A DNA stretch of 56,358 bases from an uncultured Atopobiaceae bacterium (GCA_947625235.1 CANQNP010000004.1:1-56358), one strand, 5' to 3'; shown: positions 3,287 through 15,787, numbered from the stretch's first letter. Notes: generated from the letters alone by a model not told the origin. A program made the numbers and translations.

Positions 3287-3362
<76 letters not shown>

Positions 3363-5118: not shown

Positions 5119-5817
5119 TCACTCGCATTCCCTGCGCACGAGCGCGAATCTCGCACCCGCGATGTCGAGCTCCTCACCCGCGGCGAGCTCCGTCGATCCC
5201 CGGACGTCCGCGCCATCCTTCGTGGCGCGGGCCCGACGGTCCATGAGCACCACCGTGGCATGCTCGCCCGAGAGTGCGATCCGCGCGTGCTCGTCGCACA
5301 CCGTGAAATCGCTCAGCACGATCTCGCTTTGCGGCAGGCGGCCGATGGTGAGGCCCGCCCCCTCAAGCGGCACGAGCACCTCGACGCCCCGCCATCGCAC
5401 GCGAAGGAAGAACCGGCCACCGCCTGTCGAGCGGGCGGCGTCCGCGCCCTCCTCGCGCGGGGCTTCGGAGGGGACTTCCTCGACGATTTCACGCGGGGCA
5501 AGGGGCGGGGCCTCCAAGAGCGCCGCACTCGCCATCGCGTGCGGCGCACTGGCCTTCGGGATTGCGGGGGCGGAGGTGACGATGCGCGGGGTCGCCACGG
5601 GATGTGGCGCCGCCTCGGCCGCAGGCGGCGAGATCTCCCCCTCAGGCGTTCCCGAGCCGGGGTAATCGAGGCTCGGTCGGGTGAAGTCGTAGAGGCAGCC
5701 GTAGCACACGTCCATGTCGGCGAAGACCACCGCCCCGCACCTCGGACACGTCTTCGTGAGCGACGTCGGCTGGCGCTTCTCGCGCTCCCCCTCGAGAACC
5801 TGCGTACCTGAAACCAT
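5119..5817 (-). CDS. Zinc-ribbon and FHA-domain protein
   Basis: The 232-residue protein has an N-terminal zinc ribbon (CPRCG...CYGC, about residues 25-45), an Ala/Glu/Pro-rich linker and a C-terminal forkhead-associated domain (about 135-230) with the GR and S/H signature in IGRLPQSEIVLSDFTVCDEHARI. FHA domains read phosphothreonine, so a Ser/Thr-kinase-dependent partner is likely. The reading frame is open further upstream, but the ATG at 5817 has GGAAGGAGC in front and places the zinc ribbon near the N-terminus. It is the last gene of the Tad pilus operon, 56 bases after the DUF192 gene. A role as regulator of pilus assembly or secretion is inferred from context only. Confidence 0.8.
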   Translation of the reverse strand: MVSGTQVLEGEREKRQPTSLTKTCPRCGAVVFADMDVCYGCLYDFTRPSLDYPGSGTPEGEISPPAAEAAPHPVATPRIVTSAPAIPKASAPHAMASAALLEAPPLAPREIVEEVPSEAPREEGADAARSTGGGRFFLRVRWRGVEVLVPLEGAGLTIGRLPQSEIVLSDFTVCDEHARIALSGEHATVVLMDRRARATKDGADVRGSTELAAGEELDIAGARFALVRRECE

Positions 5818-5873
5818 TGCGTGCTCCTTCCTTCTTGCGTTCCGATTCGCCTTCTGCGGGCGCATCCCGCACT

Positions 5874-6212
5874 TCACGCGCTGATGCGCACCCTTTCGCC
5901 ACGCTCAACCCAAGGACCATCCGCCGCCGGCCTTTCCACCACGCACACGGCGCCCCGTGCCGAAAGCACGCGTCCGGGCCTCACCCCACGCGCCACCCGC
6001 ACCGCGTTCATATGGCGATCGATGAAGCAGATATCGAGGTCGAAGGCCATGCCGATGGTGTGCACCGAGCGGCAACGGTCGATGAGCACGCAGGGTGCCT
6101 CCTCGAGGCGCCTCGCCCAGAGAAGCCCCACGAGCTTCTCCGCGAAGCCCCTGAGCACGATGAGGCGAGCCCTCTCCACGCTCCGTGCCTCGAGATAGCG
6201 AACCTCAGGCAT
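5874..6212 (-). CDS. DUF192 family protein in the Tad locus
   Basis: This 112-residue protein matches the DUF192 pattern: an early Arg-rich helix, a GLLWARRLEEAPCVLI segment, then the signature SVHTIGMAFDLDICFID followed by V.RV.RGVRPGR and a final ERP segment. The family's function is unknown. The ATG at 6212 is favoured over a TTG at 6227 because GGGGGAGAGGG precedes it and the overlap with the upstream gene is only 8 bases. No signal peptide is evident, unlike many DUF192 proteins. It is placed between a TadE-like gene and the FHA gene, so it is probably co-translated with the pilus genes; its job there is unknown. Confidence 0.75.
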   Translation of the reverse strand: MPEVRYLEARSVERARLIVLRGFAEKLVGLLWARRLEEAPCVLIDRCRSVHTIGMAFDLDICFIDRHMNAVRVARGVRPGRVLSARGAVCVVERPAADGPWVERGERVRISA

Positions 6213-6675
6213 GGCCCTCTCCCCCAATCCCGATCGTCGAGGCGTCCACCACGATCGAGCGCGTATGCGTCGCCAGCACCGGCAGTGCGAACGAGGCCCC
6301 CGCTATGGAGAAGCTCGAGGGATGCGGCCGATACCCCATGGAACAGGTGAAGCGCACCCGCGAGGGCGAGATGGAGAACACGCCCCCGGAGAAGAGGTCG
6401 AGGTGCTCCGCGGAGACCTCGATCACGAGATCCGGATCGGCCATGGCGCCCTCGATCGCCGCCTTCACCTGCGAGGCGGCAGCCGTGGCATCCTGCTCGC
6501 CCGCGGGAGAGACCCCGTGGGCGAGCGCCGCGTCCATCGCCACGCGGTCGAAGCGGGCGCAGAGATTCGCGAACCACGCCCCGTTCATGGCCACGAGGGC
6601 GCAGACGAGGATCACCGGCACCATCACCGCCATCTCCGCCACCATCTGGCCGCGTTCCTCGGCAAAGACCGTCAT
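6205..6675 (-). CDS. TadE-like pseudopilin (second copy)
   Basis: The 156-residue protein has the TadE layout: a short charged N-terminus with RGQMVAEMAVMVPVIL, in which a glutamate sits five residues after the glycine, then one hydrophobic segment (about residues 13-35), then a small extracytoplasmic domain. TadE-like proteins are processed like pilins and act as minor pseudopilins or anchors of the Tad machine. The start ATG overlaps the stop of the TadG-like gene in an ATGA junction, so the two are translationally coupled. Sequence similarity outside the N-terminal segment is low, as is usual for this family. Confidence 0.75.
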   Translation of the reverse strand: MTVFAEERGQMVAEMAVMVPVILVCALVAMNGAWFANLCARFDRVAMDAALAHGVSPAGEQDATAAASQVKAAIEGAMADPDLVIEVSAEHLDLFSGGVFSISPSRVRFTCSMGYRPHPSSFSIAGASFALPVLATHTRSIVVDASTIGIGGEGHA

Positions 6676-8780
6676 AGGAGCCCCAATCCCGCGAGGCTCA
6701 CCTTGAGCGGGATGCGGATCTGCGTCCCGGGGATGGGGAGCTCGGCCACGGTGAACTCCACGTCGCGGATATCGCTCGCAAGCTCGCGGCCGGCGGCGGC
6801 GAGGAGCTCCGCCACCCCGCCGTTGGTGGGCATCGCCTGGAGGTAGCGTCGGATGTCCGCCGATTGCGTGGAGCCGTCCTTGTCGAGGACATCCTGCGTG
6901 TTGCAGAGCACGGGCTTCTTGATGCGCATATCCGCGGGTTGGAATCCGAGCGCGTCCACGATGCTCGTGAGCGTGTTCGAGAGCCAATCGGCGATGACGC
7001 CGAGCCCTATGGAATCGAGGCCGTCGAAGAGGCTGCGCGCCGCTCCCGAGATGCCCTCGGCGGCGGATCCGTATCCCACGAGGAGCCGGCCCCAGAGGGT
7101 CGTGATGCCCTGGAGGAGGCCCTCGATGCCGCCGTCCTCGCCCTCGGAGACCGCATCGAAGAACCGCGAGAGGATGTTGTTCTCGGCGGTGGCGTCATCG
7201 GGAGCGAGGGTCGCGGCCGCCATCGCGCAGCCAGCGGGGAGCTCCGCGTCACCGGTAAGCGTGCTCGCGAGCGAGGACGGACTGTCCGCGGAACCATGGA
7301 TGACGATGGCGATGCAGCCCCATGCCCCGGGCGGGCAGAGTGAGGGCCTCGGAACGGCGAGCGCTTGCAACGCCTCCTCGAAGGCGTCGGCTCCGCCCTC
7401 GCCCGACGAGCGCATCGCCTCCTCGGCGGCGTCGAGCTCGGCCTTGGCCGCCGTCCACTCGTGGGAGGCCTCGACGACGATCCGCCAATAGTGTTCGAAG
7501 CCGTTCGTGGTGTTCGTCGAGGCCGCGGCCACGCGTCCCATCTCGGAGGTCGACAGGTGGCAGACGGCGCATTCCCGCGCGGCGCCCGCGTCCATCTGGG
7601 CGAGCGTGATGGATCCCGCAGGCGCGCCCTTCGCGCCCGGGCACGAGGCGTAGGCGTGGATCGTCCTTCCCCCCGCCTCCTCGGTCGTGGGCCACGCGAC
7701 CTGCGTGTACATGGAAGTCGCGCGCGTCTCGGATGCGTTGTGCGCGAGCGAGGGAAGCTCCATCGACACGGAACCATCGGCGTTTTGCCGGTAGAAGCCC
7801 CGGTTCACCTCGCTCAGGGCGTAGGCGTAGTAGACCTTGCGCATGGCCGAGTTCGCCTGCTCGTCGGGAGCGCTCGAGGCCGGGGCCTCTTGGGCGCGGC
7901 GCGCCGCGTAGTAGGCCCGCGCACGGGAGAGCGCGACGCCGAAGTTCCATCCCTCGGGATTCGAATAGTTGGGGTTGTCCTCGCCGTAGAGCGAGGCGAG
8001 GCTCGCCGCGCGCGACCTCATGCAGAGGGGATCGTCCACGCAGTCCGCGCGCCAACCCTTCTCCTGCGCGCGGTCGAGTGCCTCCTTGGCCTCCTTGGCC
8101 TCGTCGGAGGCCTCTCCCAGCTCCTCCGCCGCCCCCTCGATGTCGTCGATCTCCACGTCGTCGGCGAGGTCGAAGTCGGATTTCCCCTCCTCGGGGAACG
8201 GAATCGCCACCCCCGCGTAGCCCACGGCCCCGGTGTTATTCGCCTGGACGGTCACGAACGAATCGGCGGCGATGAGCGCGGGCACGCTTCCCTCGAGCTT
8301 CTCGAGGTTCTGCGCCGCGGAGGTGGCGAAGTCCTTGCGGGCGTCCATGATCTTTCCGCCGGCATCCACCACGTGGAGCCCCGTGGGGGCCATCCCCGGG
8401 ACCGCGCAGACGATGAGTCCCGCGCCCATCACGAAGAGGCCGGCGAGCCCGAGCGTGAGCACGCAGGCATCCGTCACCTCGGCGACGAGCGTGTAGGCCT
8501 TCACGACCTGCTCGCCCGAAAGCGCGCAGGAATCCGCCACCGCCTGGACATCGGCCGCGCGCGATCCCACCCACTGCACCTGCGCGAGCGTGAGCGTGAG
8601 GGAAAGCGAGACCAGGAGCGCGAGGGCCACGGCCACGGTCGTATAGCCGCCCTCCTCGTCGAGGAAGAGGGAAAGCCCGAGGTGGCGGGGCCCGTGAGGA
8701 CGAAGGTGCGCGACGCGCCCGCGCCTCGCCCTGCGCGCACGGCCTCCTCGCTCAGCCATTCCACATGGAAACCCAGTCAT
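6672..8780 (-). CDS. Large TadG-like Tad pilus protein with Cys-rich exported domain
   Basis: The 702-residue protein starts with an Arg-rich cytoplasmic tail, then EEGGYTTVAVALALLVSLSLT and SRAADVQAVADSCALSG, which is the TadG/TadE-like pattern, and a second hydrophobic stretch near residues 105-125. The rest is predicted outside the membrane and holds many paired cysteines (DCVDDPLC, ECAVCH, LCPPGAWGC), suggesting disulfides. The ATG at 8780 has GGAGGGAGG five bases upstream and overlaps the preceding gene by 29 bases. TadG proteins are thought to anchor the pilus or sit at its base; the size here is above the roughly 400-600 residues common for TadG. The exact role is inferred. Confidence 0.7.
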   Translation of the reverse strand: MTGFPCGMAERGGRARRARRGRVAHLRPHGPRHLGLSLFLDEEGGYTTVAVALALLVSLSLTLTLAQVQWVGSRAADVQAVADSCALSGEQVVKAYTLVAEVTDACVLTLGLAGLFVMGAGLIVCAVPGMAPTGLHVVDAGGKIMDARKDFATSAAQNLEKLEGSVPALIAADSFVTVQANNTGAVGYAGVAIPFPEEGKSDFDLADDVEIDDIEGAAEELGEASDEAKEAKEALDRAQEKGWRADCVDDPLCMRSRAASLASLYGEDNPNYSNPEGWNFGVALSRARAYYAARRAQEAPASSAPDEQANSAMRKVYYAYALSEVNRGFYRQNADGSVSMELPSLAHNASETRATSMYTQVAWPTTEEAGGRTIHAYASCPGAKGAPAGSITLAQMDAGAARECAVCHLSTSEMGRVAAASTNTTNGFEHYWRIVVEASHEWTAAKAELDAAEEAMRSSGEGGADAFEEALQALAVPRPSLCPPGAWGCIAIVIHGSADSPSSLASTLTGDAELPAGCAMAAATLAPDDATAENNILSRFFDAVSEGEDGGIEGLLQGITTLWGRLLVGYGSAAEGISGAARSLFDGLDSIGLGVIADWLSNTLTSIVDALGFQPADMRIKKPVLCNTQDVLDKDGSTQSADIRRYLQAMPTNGGVAELLAAAGRELASDIRDVEFTVAELPIPGTQIRIPLKVSLAGLGLL

Positions 8781-9261
8781 CGTAGCCTCCCTCCAACCAA
8801 TCGGGCCTCACGGCCTCCGTCGTGCTCACGGAGAGCGCGAGGCCCTCCTCGTCGGCGACGCCGAGCGCGCGCGAAACGAACGCGAAGAGCGGGAGGAGGG
8901 GCACGTGCCCAGAGATGGTCACCGTCACCTCCGCGTCTCCCTCGGCCCCCGAGGTATCGATCGTCCAGTCCTCCTCGCCACCGCCGTGGAAGGGCGCGGC
9001 CTCGGGAACCGCGGCGAGCCTCCTCCTCGCGAAGGCCTGGAGCTGCTCGTCGGTGATGTCGCCCCTGCGCGTGGCGAGGATCCTGCAGAGCTCGGAGGCG
9101 GTGGCGCTCATCACCGAGCGGGTGTAGAGCACGCAGACGGGCTCCATGAGCACCGCGAAGACCACGAGGAGGGAGGGCAGGAGCAGCCCCGCCTCCACGC
9201 TCGATTGGCCGCGTTCCTCGCGCACGGGCGCCCGCAAGGGCCTATCCCTCCGCATCCGCAT
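8752..9261 (-). CDS. TadE-like pseudopilin (first copy)
   Basis: The 169-residue protein has a basic N-terminus, the motif ERGQSSVEAGLLLPSLLVVFAVL with a possible prepilin cleavage after the glycine and glutamate at +5, one membrane segment, and a short exported domain ending in YDDWVSMWNG. This is the TadE-like pattern of minor pseudopilins in Tad systems. The start is 9 bases after the stop of the small Flp-like gene, with a modest GAGGG site. Its 3' end overlaps the TadG-like gene by 29 bases, again indicating coupling. Confidence 0.78.
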   Translation of the reverse strand: MRMRRDRPLRAPVREERGQSSVEAGLLLPSLLVVFAVLMEPVCVLYTRSVMSATASELCRILATRRGDITDEQLQAFARRRLAAVPEAAPFHGGGEEDWTIDTSGAEGDAEVTVTISGHVPLLPLFAFVSRALGVADEEGLALSVSTTEAVRPDWLEGGYDDWVSMWNG

Positions 9262-9270
9262 GGACGGCCC

Positions 9271-9501
9271 TCAGTAGAGCGCGACGTCTTGGAGGGCGCC
9301 GACGAAGGACTGGGCCTGGCTATGGGAGGCGGCTTCGACGGCCTCGCTCACCACCACGCCCGAGCTCGCCGCCTTGGCGATCGCCCCGAGCGCGACGACC
9401 ATGGCGAGGAATGCGCCGAGCACGATCGCGTACTCCACCGTCGATTGGCCAAGGCGCTCAGAGCGCATCTGCGCTAAGCGCCTCTTCCCACATCTCAGCA
9501 T
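9271..9501 (-). CDS. Second Flp-like pilin
   Basis: The 76-residue peptide has an 18-residue basic leader ending in glycine, then QSTVEYAIVLGAFLAMVV, which fits the Flp/TadE prepilin site G|XXXXEY and a single hydrophobic helix, followed by about 35 further residues. The ATG at 9501 has GAGG close upstream and gives a 44-base overlap with the preceding gene; an ATG at 9468 would shorten the leader to 7 residues but has a poorer site. It is probably a minor pilin, because it lies away from the first Flp gene and has a longer mature part than that gene's product. Confidence 0.72.
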   Translation of the reverse strand: MLRCGKRRLAQMRSERLGQSTVEYAIVLGAFLAMVVALGAIAKAASSGVVVSEAVEAASHSQAQSFVGALQDVALY

Positions 9502-10018
9502 CGAGCCTCACCACCTCCACGAGCGAGCTGCCGCTCGCGCGTTCTCGCACGCAACACACGTCGACCCATCCCGCGTCTGCGACCACGCATCCCCAGGCCC
9601 TCCCGAGGAAGTCGAGGTAGGAGGCCTCGAAGAGCGTGGCTCCCGCATCGCGGTAGCTCTCGAGGACCCACGTGGCCACCTCCGGCACGTCGCCGTCGCG
9701 CTCAAACGCCTTCGCCTCGCCGAGCTCGCCCATCACGCGTTCGATGGACTGGGCCGCACGGAGCGCCGCATCGCCCTCGAGGCCGTCGCCCGCTTCCCCG
9801 CCGAGCGCGCCAAGCTCGCCCAGCGCCTCGCCAAGGGACTGGTCGCCGGGATCTCCCCGCGTCGCCCCAGCCCCGGGCACCGTGGATTGCGCGGAGCTTG
9901 GCGGACTCCCCTCGGAAGGGGACGCGGACCCGCCCGGCACGCACGCGCACCATGCGAGCAATCCGAGCGCCGCGAGGATGCCCACCCAAACGCACCACCT
10001 TCCGCGCCCGCGCGTCAC
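9458..10018 (-). CDS. Membrane-anchored or exported protein of the Tad locus, unknown function
   Basis: I do not recognise the family. A GTG start at 10018 overlaps the stop of the Flp pilin gene (GTGA), so it is translationally coupled to it. The 186-residue product begins with a basic stretch and one hydrophobic segment (about residues 9-25) ending in WCACV; no good lipobox is present. A Gly/Ser/Pro-rich linker follows, then an acidic helical part and a C-terminal segment with CVV and CC cysteines that would be outside the cell. Its position between two pilin genes suggests a pilus accessory or assembly protein, which is inference only. Confidence 0.65.
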   Translation of the reverse strand: MTRGRGRWCVWVGILAALGLLAWCACVPGGSASPSEGSPPSSAQSTVPGAGATRGDPGDQSLGEALGELGALGGEAGDGLEGDAALRAAQSIERVMGELGEAKAFERDGDVPEVATWVLESYRDAGATLFEASYLDFLGRAWGCVVADAGWVDVCCVRERASGSSLVEVVRLDAEMWEEALSADAL

Positions 10019-10362
10019 AGCGAGTTGATGCCGTCGGCGATGGAGGTCCAAAGCTCCTGCACCTTGTCGCGGAAGATGAGGATGGCCATGATCGCGATCA
10101 CCACGAGCACGCCCACCAAGATCGCGTACTCGGTCGTGCCTTGGCCGGCTTCCTCCTCGATGAGCGCGCGACGCCACCGCCGACGGGACCCCCTGCGCTC
10201 GAGCTTCGCGGGCGCCTCATCGACCTCAACGCCTTCCGGATGGAAGACGAGCACCTCCGCGCCTCCAGGCGGGACGGGGCGCCTCCTCGAGGGGGCGCTT
10301 CTTTCTCCCTGCTTCGAAATCCAATCCTCTTCGAAGGGGATCACCTGGGCTTTTGCCTGCAT
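10015..10362 (-). CDS. flp: Flp-type major pilin with long leader
   Basis: The 115-residue prepilin contains the canonical Flp site EEAG|QGTTEYAILVGVLVVIAI: cleavage after Gly73 would give a 42-residue mature pilin with Glu and Tyr at +5 and +6 and one hydrophobic helix. The N-terminal 73 residues are far longer than the usual leader of 10-25 residues. The ATG at 10362 is supported by AAAGGAG five bases upstream and no closer good start was seen, although GAGGAGGAAG inside the codons for IEEEAG could mimic a ribosome-binding site. It lies 38 bases after tadC and overlaps the next gene by 4 bases. Confidence 0.85.
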   Translation of the reverse strand: MQAKAQVIPFEEDWISKQGERSAPSRRRPVPPGGAEVLVFHPEGVEVDEAPAKLERRGSRRRWRRALIEEEAGQGTTEYAILVGVLVVIAIMAILIFRDKVQELWTSIADGINSL

Positions 10363-10400
10363 GACGGCTCCTTTCCCTATTCGCTTCGATAGACGGGCGC

Positions 10401-11057
10401 CTAACCCACGCTCACGAGCGCCGAGGCCACGAGGGGGCCGAGTACGGCGAGGAGCATCGCGGGTACGACGAGGACCCCGAGGGGGACGAGCATCTTCACG
10501 GGCACCTTCTCGATGGCCTCCTCCACGTCGCGCTTGTGGTCGGCGCGGATGGCCGAGGCCTGGCGCACGAGGGTGTCCGTGAGGGGAATCCCGAAGGCAA
10601 GCGACTCGGAGACGGCGGACGCGAAGCGCTCGAGCGCCGACGCATGGACGCGCCCTGCCATGGAATCCAGCGCCTCCGCGCGTGACGCCACGCCCATCGA
10701 CCACGAGAGCCTCGTCTGGTCCATGAGCTCCGCAAGCGGCGTGTCGAAGCGCTCGCAGTAGAGGGCGAGCGAGGCGTCGAAGGAGAGGCCCGCGGAAAGC
10801 CCGAGCGTGAGGATGTCGAGCATCTCGGGCACCTCGGCAAGCTGCGAGATGGCGACGCCCTCGCGCTCCCCGCGTTCCTTGAGCTCGCGCACGAGGGCGA
10901 GGCTTGAGAGCGCCTTGAGGGGACCGGCGTGCCGTGCCCGCCTCGGCGTCGCGGACCCGCCATGCGCGAGGTCCCCACGTGCGCCCGATCCGCCTTGGAA
11001 GAGCCACGCGGCAAGCACCGCGGCCACCGCGGCCATCGCCATGAAGACCACGCTCAT
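10401..11057 (-). CDS. tadC: Tad pilus inner-membrane platform protein TadC (type II secretion F domain)
   Basis: The 218-residue membrane protein has an N-terminal membrane helix (about 2-20), a cytoplasmic GspF-type helical domain containing VPEMLDILTLGLSAGLSFDASL, and two C-terminal hydrophobic segments (LVPLGVLVVPAMLLAVLGPLVASALV). With TadB it should form the platform on which the CpaF ATPase acts. It is somewhat shorter than the typical 280-320 residue TadC. The start ATG overlaps the tadB stop as ATGA, with GGAGGTGAAG in front. Confidence 0.85.
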   Translation of the reverse strand: MSVVFMAMAAVAAVLAAWLFQGGSGARGDLAHGGSATPRRARHAGPLKALSSLALVRELKERGEREGVAISQLAEVPEMLDILTLGLSAGLSFDASLALYCERFDTPLAELMDQTRLSWSMGVASRAEALDSMAGRVHASALERFASAVSESLAFGIPLTDTLVRQASAIRADHKRDVEEAIEKVPVKMLVPLGVLVVPAMLLAVLGPLVASALVSVG

Positions 11058-11980
11058 GGCTTCACCTCCGCCATGATGCGCCGCATCGCGAAGAGCGCGA
11101 TCACGTCGAGCGCGACGGCGATCAGAAGGCAGGCGAGCCCCAGAAGCGTGGACAATCCCTGCCGGTAGTCGGGCGTGAGCATGGCCAGGAACGCGACGAG
11201 CGCCGCGGGGAGGATCATCACGAGGTGCGCGGAGAGCCGCACCTGCGCGGTCTTGGTGGCGAGCTCCGCCTTGAGCGACTGCTGCTCCTCTACGAGCGCG
11301 GCCGAGCGCCGAAGCAAGTCGTCGAGCGGCGCGCCGGTCCTCTGGGAGACCGTGAGCGCGCAGGTGAGGAGCGAGACCCCCGGTGCGTCGAGGGTGCGCT
11401 CGAGCTCGCCCAGCGCCTCGAACACCGACATCCCGCACTGCACCGCGAGGCTCGCGCGCACGAACGCGCGGCCGGCGTCGCCCTTCGCGTGCGAGCCCAC
11501 GTAGCCGATGGCCTGGGTGAGGGTCTTGCCGGCTCCCAAGCTCGAGGCAAGCGAGCGCAGGAGATCGGGCATGGCCGCGGCAATCGAATCCTTGCGCGCG
11601 CGATCGAGGGCCTTGGCCACGAAGGGCACGAGGGCGAGGCTCCCCAGGAGCGCGATCGGAACCATGAGGAGCGTGCCGCAAAGCCAGCTCGCCACCAGGC
11701 TCGCCGCGAGCGTGGCGAGGACGATCGCCCCCGCGGCGCTGCGTCGCCCGAGGTAGAGGTCCACCTTCGCCGCCGCCTCGCGAAGCGCGTCCTCGCAGGC
11801 GATCCATGGCGCGGATTGCACGAGGGGCTCGAGGATCGGCGCCGATCCGAGCCACGCGCAGAGGTCGAGCACGCGGCGATGGAGGAGGATCCGCGAAGCC
11901 CGCGTGCTCCCCGATGCGCCATGGCAGCAGAGGCTCGCCGACGCCATGGCGAAGAGGCAGCAGAGGACGCACGCGCTCAT
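11054..11980 (-). CDS. tadB: Tad pilus inner-membrane platform protein TadB (type II secretion F domain)
   Basis: The 308-residue protein has a hydrophobic N-terminal segment, a pair of membrane helices near residues 83-118, the GspF-like cytoplasmic domain with MPDLLRSLASSLGAGKTLTQAI and GELERTLDAPG, and C-terminal helices around 247-290. TadB and TadC family proteins form the inner-membrane platform of Tad machines. The start at 11980 overlaps the cpaF stop as ATGA; upstream GGGGGG may act as a weak ribosome-binding site, consistent with coupling. Confidence 0.87.
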   Translation of the reverse strand: MSACVLCCLFAMASASLCCHGASGSTRASRILLHRRVLDLCAWLGSAPILEPLVQSAPWIACEDALREAAAKVDLYLGRRSAAGAIVLATLAASLVASWLCGTLLMVPIALLGSLALVPFVAKALDRARKDSIAAAMPDLLRSLASSLGAGKTLTQAIGYVGSHAKGDAGRAFVRASLAVQCGMSVFEALGELERTLDAPGVSLLTCALTVSQRTGAPLDDLLRRSAALVEEQQSLKAELATKTAQVRLSAHLVMILPAALVAFLAMLTPDYRQGLSTLLGLACLLIAVALDVIALFAMRRIMAEVKP

Positions 11981-13311
11981 GCGGCCACCCCCCTGTTCGC
12001 GGAGGTGGAGGATGCCGACGCCGCTCGGACGGTCGGCGCGAGGCGTGGCGCGGTTTCGCGCGCAAAGGGCGGCTCGCCCACGAGCTCCCAGTGGTCGCGT
12101 TCCTCGTCGTAGGTGACGATCGGCGTGAGCGCGACGCTCCCGTCGGGGGCGCGCGTGACCGCCGAGGCGGACGTGACGCGACGCTCGCCCGAGGCCATGC
12201 GCTTGCTCATCACGATGAGGTCGAGGGCGGTGGCGATCTGCTCCTCGAGGATGAGCGCGGGGAGGTCCATCCCGAAGCGCGCCATGAGCACGAGGCGCAG
12301 TATCGCCTCGTCCTCCGTACCCGCGTGGAGGGTCGTCATGGAGCCGTCGTGGCCGGTGTTCATGGCCTGGAGCATGTCGACGCACTCGGCGCCGCGGACC
12401 TCGCCCACGATGATACGATCGGGACGCATGCGCAGGGCGTTCGTCACGAGATCGCGAATGGTCACCTGCCCCCGGCCCTCCACCGAGGCGTCCCTCGCCT
12501 CGAGCCGCACGACGTGGGGATGCTCGTCGAAGGCGAGCTCCGCGGAGTCCTCGATCGTGACGATCCGCTCCGCGTGGCTGATCTCCGCCGAGAGGGCGTT
12601 CAGGAGGGTGGTCTTGCCGGAGCCCGTGCCCCCGGCGACGGCGATGTCCTGCCGACACGTCACCGCCTGCGAGAGCAGCCTCGCGTACCACGCGGGCAGG
12701 CTCCCCATCGCGACGAGGCTCTCGAGCCTGTGGATGCGCCCGGTGAACTTGCGGATCGTCACCACGGGGCCGTCGATGGCGATGGGCGCGATCACGGCGT
12801 TCACGCGGTCTCCGTTTGCGAGGCGCGCGTTCACGATGGGACTCGATTCGTCGAGGCGTCGTCCGAGGGGCGCGAGGATGCGGTCCACCACGAGGAGGAT
12901 CTGCTCGGCGCTCTCGAATACGCGCTCGGCCTCGAGAAGGCGGCCCTCGCGCTCGAAGAAGAGCGAGCTCGTGCCGTTCACCATCACCTCGGTGACGCTC
13001 GGGTCGTCGAGCAGGGGCTGGATGGGCCCCAGGCCCACGACCTCGTCGAGGACCTCGGACACGAGGTGCGCGCGATCCTCTCCCTGCAAACCGTGGTAGT
13101 CGTTCTCGTTGAGGAGCGCCTCGAGGGTGACGGCGAGCTCGCTTCGCGATCGCTCGGCGCTCTCCGATCCCACCACCCCCGCGATGGCCTTGAGGCCGAG
13201 GCGCTCCACGAGGTCGCGCTTGAGTTGTTCTCGCAGCGGGCTGAGGCTCGGCCGGGGCTCGGCCCCCTCCATGTCCGCCTGCGAGGCGATGACCCGCTCG
13301 AGGAGGCTCAT
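11977..13311 (-). CDS. cpaF: Tad pilus secretion ATPase CpaF/TadA
   Basis: The 444-residue hexameric ATPase is predicted to power polymerisation of Flp pilin. Walker A GGTGSGKT is at residues 227-234, and downstream are the Asp-box region VTIEDSAEL, the Walker B-like RIIVGEVRG and the His box MTTLHAGT. The N-terminal domain carries VLDEVVGLGPIQPLLDDPSVTEVMVNG, typical of CpaF/TadA. The ATG at 13311 matches the family start and overlaps the CpaE-like stop codon as ATGA. Only one ATPase gene is present, so retraction, if it occurs, would depend on this enzyme. Confidence 0.95.
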   Translation of the reverse strand: MSLLERVIASQADMEGAEPRPSLSPLREQLKRDLVERLGLKAIAGVVGSESAERSRSELAVTLEALLNENDYHGLQGEDRAHLVSEVLDEVVGLGPIQPLLDDPSVTEVMVNGTSSLFFEREGRLLEAERVFESAEQILLVVDRILAPLGRRLDESSPIVNARLANGDRVNAVIAPIAIDGPVVTIRKFTGRIHRLESLVAMGSLPAWYARLLSQAVTCRQDIAVAGGTGSGKTTLLNALSAEISHAERIVTIEDSAELAFDEHPHVVRLEARDASVEGRGQVTIRDLVTNALRMRPDRIIVGEVRGAECVDMLQAMNTGHDGSMTTLHAGTEDEAILRLVLMARFGMDLPALILEEQIATALDLIVMSKRMASGERRVTSASAVTRAPDGSVALTPIVTYDEERDHWELVGEPPFARETAPRLAPTVRAASASSTSANRGVAA

Positions 13312-14966
13312 GATGCGAGCGCCCTCAGGAACGGAAACACCTCGGCGCGCTTTCCGTGGGCCTTCTCGCCCACCGCCTTCCTCGCACGCTCGCAATCGGG
13401 AAGGACCCCCAACTCGGAGAGGACGAGGGCGAGGTGATGCGCCACGCTCTCCGAGAACGCGTTCGGCACGTCCACGAGCTCGCACGCGTGTCCCGCGCTC
13501 ATGAGCTCTCCCACCTCGATGCCCCCTTCGAAGATGGTGAGCTGTCGCGCGGTCTCGAAGCCCACGTCGGCACGGCTGATGAATCCCTCGTCGCGGTGCC
13601 GAGGGTCGCAGCGGTTGATGAGGCGGCAGATCCTCGTGCGCGCCACGCCGAGGCGCTGCGCGAGGAGGCCCGCCCGGGAGAGCGTGCCGATGGCCCCGGC
13701 GCGCTCGTCCGAGCACACGAGCAGGCGCGATGCCATCTGCGTGGCCTGCGCGACGGCGTCTCCCCACGAGGTCCCGCCGTCCACCACCACGAGGTCGAAG
13801 GCGGCGGAGAGGAACTCGAGGATCTCGGCCGTCCGCGGCGCCACGGTCTCCGCGTACTCCGGCTTGGCGCAGGGTCCGAAGAGCGTGAGCCGCTCCGCCA
13901 CCTGGCGCCCCACCCTCGGCAGTTCGACGTCGAGCGACGCGGTGGCGGTCGGCGTGAGGTCGGCGGGGCCGTCGAGGCCGAAGTAGCCGAAGAGGTTGCC
14001 GAAGGCGAGGTCGAGGTCCACGAGCGCCACCTCCATGCCCCAGGAGGCGGCCGTCGCGGCCATGAGCGCGGCGATCGCGCTCTTGCCCACCCCGCCTCGT
14101 CCGCTCACGAGCACGAGGCGAGGCGAGGCGTGCGCATCGTCGAGTCGCGGCACGAGCGCGAGGTGGGGATGCGGATCATCGTCCGGAAGCGCGGGCATGC
14201 GCACGGTATCCGCGGGCGCCTCGTGGCGCGCGTCTCGCGCCTCCCGGATGCGCGAGGAGAAGGGCTTGTGGCGAAGCCCTTGCTTGGGCTCAGGGGGATT
14301 CCCGAGGCCCGGAACCTGGCGCGCGAGGGTTGCGCCGGCGGTACGTTTGGAGGAGGTTGATGGGCCTCGGGCACCTTCCACGTCGCCAAGTTCCGGTTCC
14401 TCGAGATCGTCTCCCCACGGCGAGGGGGCATGGGCAGTCTCAGCCTCCTCGATCGTGGGCAGAGAGCGGAAGAAGAGGCGACGGTGCGCCACCTCGTCCA
14501 CGTCCAAGGACGCGTCGGCCCGAGAATCGCGCCCAGCCGATGGCTCGTCGTCGACGACCGTCCCCGCACTCGGCGCATCGCCGTGGCGCGGCGCGGGCGC
14601 CGCCTCGTTCGTCGAGGAGGCGAGCCCGAGGACGCCCACCACCTCCCAGGGCTCCACGACCCGCGTGACCTTCGCCTGCGCGGCGCGAGATCGAAGCGAC
14701 CCCGAGGGCGCGTCCGCGACGAGGTAGACGCTCCTCGCCCGCCCGTCTCGCGCGACGGCGGCCGCCACGTTCACCGCCTCGATGGGGCTCGTGTCGCCCA
14801 CCACGGCGCGCCTCAGCCCCGCGGGCCCTTCGAGGAGGGCCTGGCGAAAGAGCCATGGGTCGTCGTAGGCCTCGACGTCGACGCCGCGTGCCTCGAGGAT
14901 CTCCCTCGCCCACGCCTCCTCGCCGGTGCTGATGAGGGAAACGGGGCGTTCGCGATCGGCGATCAT
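13308..14966 (-). CDS. cpaE: CpaE/MinD-like pilus localisation ATPase
   Basis: The 552-residue protein has an N-terminal receiver-like domain (about 8-115), a disordered linker of roughly 160 residues rich in Ala, Pro and charged residues, and a C-terminal MinD/ParA-type ATPase (about 282-500). Its deviant Walker A is GRGGVGKS (289-296), followed by VALVDLDLAFGNLFGYFG and VVVDGG. CpaE/TadZ proteins place the Tad machine in the cell. The linker is longer than in most CpaE proteins. Start at 14966 with AGAGGAG in front, overlapping the upstream gene as ATGA. Confidence 0.85.
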   Translation of the reverse strand: MIADRERPVSLISTGEEAWAREILEARGVDVEAYDDPWLFRQALLEGPAGLRRAVVGDTSPIEAVNVAAAVARDGRARSVYLVADAPSGSLRSRAAQAKVTRVVEPWEVVGVLGLASSTNEAAPAPRHGDAPSAGTVVDDEPSAGRDSRADASLDVDEVAHRRLFFRSLPTIEEAETAHAPSPWGDDLEEPELGDVEGARGPSTSSKRTAGATLARQVPGLGNPPEPKQGLRHKPFSSRIREARDARHEAPADTVRMPALPDDDPHPHLALVPRLDDAHASPRLVLVSGRGGVGKSAIAALMAATAASWGMEVALVDLDLAFGNLFGYFGLDGPADLTPTATASLDVELPRVGRQVAERLTLFGPCAKPEYAETVAPRTAEILEFLSAAFDLVVVDGGTSWGDAVAQATQMASRLLVCSDERAGAIGTLSRAGLLAQRLGVARTRICRLINRCDPRHRDEGFISRADVGFETARQLTIFEGGIEVGELMSAGHACELVDVPNAFSESVAHHLALVLSELGVLPDCERARKAVGEKAHGKRAEVFPFLRALAS

Positions 14967-15787
14967 GGCTGCTCCTCTGGGATCGCGTCGGATGGGATGT
15001 CCTCGGAAGGGGTGCCGGTGGTCGCATCGCCCCACGCGTCCTCGACGAAGACCTCGCCGATCTCCGCGTCGTCCCCTTCCGCGGGAACGTTCGGGGGAGC
15101 CACGGGATCGACCGCTTGGCCGGCGTCGGCCTCGCCTTCCGCGGTGCCGGATTCCACGCCGTAGAGCCCATCTGCGGGCTGTACGAGGCGAAGGCTGCCG
15201 TCGGTGGCGGCGGCGATGAAGGCCGCCACGTCATCGAGCGGCACGGCGACCGTGAGAGACGCACCGGAGGCGCTCGCGCCCTCGCCCTGGCCGATGACGG
15301 TGAGTCCCGTGGACACGACGCGCGTCTCGCCGTCGACGACGCGGTACCCCACGAGTTGGGTGCCGAGCGCCACGTCGGAGCCCACGCCCGTCTTGTCGCC
15401 AAGCGCCACGGACATGGCCACCGTGCCGTCGGGAATGGGAAGCGTCGTCGAATCCTCGCGAACCGCGGTTTCGGTGATGGGCGTGCCCGCGCTCACCGGA
15501 GAGGTGAGCGTGAGGCCGAGGGAATCCTCGAGGGACGTGAGCGAGCCCTCGGGCACGAGCTCCGCCACCCAGTCGCGTTCCTCGCACGTGAGGGAATCGA
15601 CCTTCTCGCCGGGTTCGAGATCGCGCGCGGCGACCACGATGCCCACGAGCTCGCCGCCATAGCGCTCGAGCGCCTCGGCGCGATCCGTCTCCGCCTCGGC
15701 GCGCACCTGCTCGCCATAGCCGAGGCAGGCCATGAGCGCGAGCACGCCGAAGGCGGCGGAGAGTATGAGGCGAAATCGCTTGGACAT
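14963..15787 (-). CDS. cpaB: CpaB/RcpC-like SAF-domain Tad pilus protein
   Basis: The 274-residue protein has an N-terminal membrane segment (about 6-24, ending LMACLG, which could also be read as a weak lipobox) and then a SAF domain with IVVAARDLEPGEKVDSL and SPVSAGTPITETAV, the pattern of CpaB pilus assembly proteins. A second beta-rich part follows and the C-terminal 60 residues are acidic and low in complexity. In Gram-negative Tad systems CpaB works with the secretin; here no secretin gene is seen, so it may act at the outer face of the membrane or wall. It is the first gene of the operon, with GGGGAG before the start. Confidence 0.82.
   Translation of the reverse strand: MSKRFRLILSAAFGVLALMACLGYGEQVRAEAETDRAEALERYGGELVGIVVAARDLEPGEKVDSLTCEERDWVAELVPEGSLTSLEDSLGLTLTSPVSAGTPITETAVREDSTTLPIPDGTVAMSVALGDKTGVGSDVALGTQLVGYRVVDGETRVVSTGLTVIGQGEGASASGASLTVAVPLDDVAAFIAAATDGSLRLVQPADGLYGVESGTAEGEADAGQAVDPVAPPNVPAEGDDAEIGEVFVEDAWGDATTGTPSEDIPSDAIPEEQP

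Follow-up and report, generated by a model that had tools for sequence, protein, structure and literature searches.

Introduction

Tad pili are surface machines of wide occurrence. DUF192, a common protein family, has no known function. Among monoderm actinobacteria, Tad/Flp systems have been described in Bifidobacterium breve and Micrococcus luteus, which combine CpaF, two platform proteins and Flp/TadE-like pilins, have no secretin and encode the prepilin peptidase outside the tad locus, as actinobacteria do (PMC6916266, PMC4322843); monoderm Tad systems are devoid of outer-membrane parts (PMC6916266). A tad operon that includes DUF192 was reported in December 2025 for the Firmicute Bulleidia extructa, and operons of this type have been described only in Erysipelotrichales and Helcococcus (PMC12786226). 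FHA domains are in turn tied to a Tad-like machine in the Kil system of Myxococcus (PMC8460266). Here we analyze a stretch of 56,358 nucleotides from an uncultured gut Atopobiaceae bacterium (GCA_947625235.1, CANQNP010000004.1:1-56358; hereafter the window), which harbors a Tad operon ending in a DUF192 gene and a gene for a zinc-ribbon/FHA protein. As one explanation for the whole locus, we favor, with some reserve, a monoderm Tad machine that has a dedicated DUF192 part and a Zn-ribbon/FHA adaptor at CpaF.

Comparison with known Tad systems

The locus is a Tad (type IVc) pilus machine of the ordinary monoderm kind, and its host is a Gram-positive coriobacterium. It encodes a CpaF-type ATPase, which is the only T2SSE-type ATPase match of the genome (91% complete), two T2SSF platform proteins and an Flp pilin with a G/XXXXEY site, here G|QGTTEY (GQGTTEYAI). 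Profiles built here were run on 41 loci, the window locus and 40 further ones, where they recover nearly all operon genes in the same order; the pilin and TadE matches that fall under the Pfam cut-offs are found by these family profiles in 41/41 loci, flp1 included. Ahead of its cleavage site, flp1 carries a leader of some 73 residues, in which AQVIPF and GGAEVIPF-like pieces are conserved within the genus (loci L032 and L033); in L034 and several other genera the leader seems shorter.

The sequence-only reading had drawn attention to a missing secretin and a missing prepilin peptidase. Both are indeed absent from the locus, and no secretin was found anywhere in the genome, yet neither absence is a novelty, because the published monoderm and actinobacterial systems have the same arrangement (PMC6916266, PMC4322843). 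A search of the rest of the genome yielded a single Peptidase_A24 gene on another contig, whose 158-aa product shows GFGDVKLM and a second Asp, so that both catalytic aspartates are visible; its neighbors, judged by eye, are MltG-, YqeG- and AroB-like.

What sets the window operon apart from those of B. breve and M. luteus are DUF192, the Zn-ribbon/FHA protein, orf7, the CpaB-like protein and a 702-aa protein at the TadG position (PMC6916266, PMC4322843). Bulleidia shares with it a penultimate gene for a 112-aa DUF192 protein, of unknown function and with a structure like 3pjy and 3m7a, but has TadV inside the operon and a coiled-coil protein instead of Zn-ribbon/FHA as the last gene (PMC12786226). 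In Kil, unlike the window, FHA is fused to the KilF ATPase, a secretin is present and the machine serves prey killing (PMC8460266). In the literature covered, one paper places DUF192 in a tad operon, that on Bulleidia (PMC12786226), and COG1430 combined with tad gave none.

Linkage of DUF192 to CpaF

Across 248 genomes of the Coriobacteriia, the class of the window organism, the positions of DUF192 (PF02643) and CpaF were determined. In class genomes for which a CpaF is listed, there are 102 listed DUF192 matches. Of these, 85 are on the cpaF strand, 5.2-8.0 kb downstream of the gene; counting any CpaF gene at up to about 8 kb brings the number to 94, nine of which are beside a second CpaF copy. 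Of the 17 matches outside the group of 85, nine are those within ~3.3 kb of a second CpaF; another two share the cpaF strand at 40-50 kb, four are located on different contigs, and the remaining two are far away. The control was the secreted-type DUF192 without Cys-x3-His, which is found within 12 kb of CpaF in 0/11 genomes, as far as contigs reach; those control homologues that could be read lack the Cys-x3-His motif and begin with a signal or lipoprotein-like segment, in contrast to the window protein. The DUF192-CpaF link is nearly fixed in Coriobacteriia and partial elsewhere. The assignment of the DUF192 and Zn-ribbon/FHA genes to the Tad operon, already made in the sequence-only reading, is borne out by these neighborhood counts, in which the homologues are not rare next to tad genes.

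Eight genomes carry second, divergent CpaF loci, each with its own divergent DUF192 2-3 kb off, some of which read CSSVHM or CSSVHC. In two genomes DUF192 and CpaF share a strand but are 42-50 kb apart; in one of them the CpaF-side locus is devoid of the pilin/DUF192 half and the operon looks split.

Outside Coriobacteriia, loci were found by scanning named genomes with patterns that include the Cys-x3-His motif. CpaF is present within flanks of roughly 10 kb in 22/40 of them, including loci of Acinetobacter, Dyella, Pigmentiphaga, Pseudidiomarina, Desulfobulbaceae, Solirubrobacterales, Eremiobacterota and Bacillota. The linked loci include those of Dyella jiangningensis and Acinetobacter venetianus RAG-1. 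A role of DUF192 as a secretin substitute was considered and rejected, because secretin genes coexist with it in 5/5 tested DUF192-bearing Tad loci outside the class.

Sequence, fold and possible role of DUF192

The conservation set was chosen by cpaF neighborhood and not by motif. In it C47, H51, G29, P79, E93 and R94 are invariant, whereas T52, M55, D60 and A88 are nearly so; C47, H51, T52, M55, D60, E93 and R94 are the marked residues of the window protein, in which no signal peptide is seen. The DUF192 fold is confirmed by the profile as well as by the structural model (pLDDT 90), which matches the secreted DUF192 proteins 3pjy (TM 0.80) and 3m7a (TM 0.71), both structures of unknown function. 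Judged by its recurrent place in Tad loci, DUF192 is probably a dedicated Tad part and an overlooked working component. Most likely it would be a small soluble Cys-x3-His protein that helps, from the cytoplasmic side, in the assembly or quality control of the motor and platform or of the prepilins.

The invariant Cys and His could also belong to an enzyme, dependent on a metal or a thiol, whose substrate is the pilins or some part of the machine, a reading in line with the conservation of C47, H51, T52, M55 and D60 in a set picked by neighborhood and with the absence of the Cys/His motif from the secreted homologues and, in the profile alignment, from 3m7a. We consider it unlikely, as conservation alone cannot separate catalysis, metal binding and structure, and to our knowledge DUF192 has no catalytic relative.

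The Zn-ribbon/FHA protein

This protein is found in 32/41 loci. Its conserved part is the Zn ribbon, present in 54/55 family members; Eggerthellaceae retain the ribbon alone, without the FHA domain, and one family, probably Coriobacteriaceae, has no such gene. The best Pfam match of the window protein by E-value is Yop-YscD_cpl (9.4e-7), a YscD-type domain of type III secretion, and it also passes the FHA profile cut-off. In a sister species the reading frame changes between the Zn-ribbon and FHA parts (10233-11320 of that locus), through a frameshift or an assembly error. CpaF with an N-terminal FHA domain was seen in nine loci.

The protein would most likely be a lineage-specific adaptor that docks at CpaF in trans, because 9/10 Proteobacterial or Desulfobacterota Tad loci carrying the Cys-x3-His DUF192 fuse FHA to CpaF. 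A different role for the domain, phosphothreonine control of the machine, had been proposed in the sequence-only reading. In the form considered here, the FHA domain would recognize a phosphothreonine made by a kinase, perhaps one in its own linker as with GarA/OdhI, and thereby switch the machine. The genome has five Pkinase matches, and sister lineages keep the pocket Arg, Ser and Asn together with a linker Asp/Glu-x-Thr-x-x-Leu, which occurs in 15/17 intact-pocket lineages versus 2/7 others (Fisher p 0.009; hand-scored and with phylogeny ignored). The linker peptide of Olsenella reads WEDDTLDLS. In the window genus, however, Arg and His are kept, Ser is replaced by Cys (as in this genome) or Leu, Asn is gone and there is no linker motif near the FHA domain; the canonical Ser is likewise missing, as Ala or His, from all five aligned Proteobacterial and Desulfobacterota CpaF fusions, and other families are devoid of the FHA domain or of the whole gene. 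Since the FHA copy has lost its binding-pocket Ser and Asn, phosphothreonine control is unsupported in this genome, where the domain is, from its pocket residues, probably no phosphothreonine reader, although such control stays plausible in sister genera with an intact pocket; for the machine as described here we hold it to be improbable. As part of an adaptor at CpaF, the FHA fold of the window genus would serve as a scaffold.

orf7 and the nature of the pilus

Located between two small pilin genes, orf7 is conserved in Atopobiaceae and some other families. Matches in several Eggerthellaceae loci were discarded as a profile artefact, since they overlie flp1 in another frame. The protein is apparently membrane-anchored, with an extracytoplasmic domain. 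Its structural model is confident just for about residues 101-180, with DcrB (6e8a; E 9.7e-4, TM 0.46) as the closest fold, and by this model the C-terminal domain would weakly resemble DcrB/PsbP-like folds.

Such a domain could suit a pseudopilus for secretion or DNA uptake instead of a pilus on the cell surface, all the more since the Flp system of Micrococcus luteus serves DNA uptake (PMC4322843). Against this stands the full Flp motif of the major pilin, and we regard the pseudopilus as doubtful at best.

Operon organization

Gene content was read directly from the sequence: 13 minus-strand genes extend from 15787 to 5119, with the CpaB-like gene first and Zn-ribbon/FHA last (Table 1). All 13 genes of the sequence-only reading, mostly joined by overlaps, were thus recovered, and its CpaF, TadB, TadC, CpaE-like, CpaB-like, DUF192 and FHA assignments are backed by Pfam/NCBIfam matches. 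It had left two genes unnamed, orf7 and that of the TadG-position protein, which has no Pfam or NCBIfam match. The gene content, conservation, motifs and folds given here are observations.

Table 1. Genes of the operon from first to last, with window coordinates.
Product	Position	Strand	Evidence
CpaB/RcpC-like SAF-domain protein, 274 aa	14963..15787	-	SAF 9.3e-9; TIGR03177 7.3e-17, below cut-off
CpaE/TadZ-like MinD-type ATPase, 552 aa	13308..14966	-	CbiA/ParA 3e-7; CpaE_hom_Actino 1.5e-6
CpaF/TadA motor ATPase	11977..13311	-	T2SSE 3.7e-55; TIGR03819 6e-92
TadB platform protein	11054..11980	-	T2SSF 1.9e-14
TadC platform protein	10401..11057	-	T2SSF 4e-11
Flp-type major prepilin (flp1)	10015..10362	-	Flp1_like 3.4e-4, below cut-off; class III site seen in sequence
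orf7, one predicted N-terminal membrane helix and C-terminal alpha/beta domain	9458..10018	-	Conservation; model
Second small pilin-like protein (flp2), site LGQSTVEY	9271..9468	-	TadE 0.0017, below cut-off; position conserved
TadE-like minor pilin 1	8752..9261	-	TadE 1.4e-4, just below cut-off
TadG-position protein, 702 aa, one N-terminal hydrophobic segment	6672..8780	-	Conserved in 40/41 loci
TadE-like minor pilin 2	6205..6675	-	TadE E 0.12 alone; profile conserved in 41/41 loci
Cys-x3-His DUF192 protein, 112 aa	5874..6212	-	PF02643 27.8 bits (cut-off 27); motif; model
Zn-ribbon (CPRCG..CYGC) and degenerate FHA protein, 232 aa	5119..5817	-	FHA 4.5e-4, 21.0 bits (cut-off 20.7)

Five junctions are of the ATGA type (cpaB/cpaE, cpaE/cpaF, cpaF/tadB, tadB/tadC and tadG/tadE2) and one, flp1/orf7, is GTGA. 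Longer overlaps join orf7/flp2, tadE1/tadG and tadE2/DUF192, and gaps of 38 and 9 nt separate tadC/flp1 and flp2/tadE1, respectively. For the FHA gene the GTGA start at 5877 taken earlier gives way to the ATG at 5817, which is preceded by an AAGGAGG-like ribosome site and leaves a gap of ~56 nt.

Scans of the operon interior, which are weak at 70% GC, revealed neither a promoter-like site nor a convincing terminator. A hairpin at ~5122-5097, directly after the FHA gene, was rejected as a terminator, having no T run and being no better than shuffles. The M32 carboxypeptidase gene located after the operon is near a tRNA-Phe gene (3287-3362).

That the DUF192 and Zn-ribbon/FHA genes are accidental passengers, as the missing Zn-ribbon/FHA gene in several families and the DUF192 genes often unlinked to a listed cpaF in other Actinomycetota might suggest, is very improbable given the fixed position across the class, the second DUF192 beside the second cpaF and the empty control subfamily, which rule out an accidental neighborhood for DUF192.

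A model for the machine and its meaning

In the preferred reading, the genome's one prepilin peptidase, whose gene is on a different contig, would process the Flp prepilins and TadE-like minor pilins, and CpaF would assemble them on the TadB/TadC platform, with the CpaE-like and CpaB-like partners and without an outer-membrane secretin. DUF192 as an assembly factor and the Zn-ribbon/FHA protein as an adaptor would be added to this core, their location, partners and roles being what we infer.

Several points weigh against this reading. For the docking at CpaF the argument is one of gene fusion only, and the putative cytoplasmic location of DUF192 is deduced solely from the lack of a visible signal peptide. 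Across phyla, the presence of the motif is no independent evidence, being part of the search pattern, while the neighborhood is. In other Actinomycetota, among the matches listed, only 13 of 61 profile-matched DUF192 genes have a listed cpaF at 15 kb or less, so that members of the family also function away from Tad loci or exert their effect in trans; with linkage partial outside the class, DUF192 was discarded as an exclusive Tad marker. Finally, a conserved neighborhood is not a demonstrated function.

A wider reading can be offered tentatively. In many Tad machines of different phyla, whether or not they have a secretin, the Cys-x3-His DUF192 may be a dedicated assembly factor that has been missed, with one copy per machine in Coriobacteriia. 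FHA-fold modules, fused to CpaF or placed on the Zn-ribbon protein, may be its recurrent companion; in those Atopobiaceae whose pocket is intact, the module could form a phosphothreonine switch with its own linker, and in the window genus it would have degenerated along with the linker motif.

For the study of Tad machines, the presence of an FHA domain in a locus is no automatic evidence of phospho-control, and the accepted Tad list may have to be extended by the Cys-x3-His DUF192. With a DUF192 subfamily that tracks the Tad motor gene class-wide, is duplicated along with it and turns up again in distant Tad loci, there is a concrete system in which the function of DUF192 can be tested.

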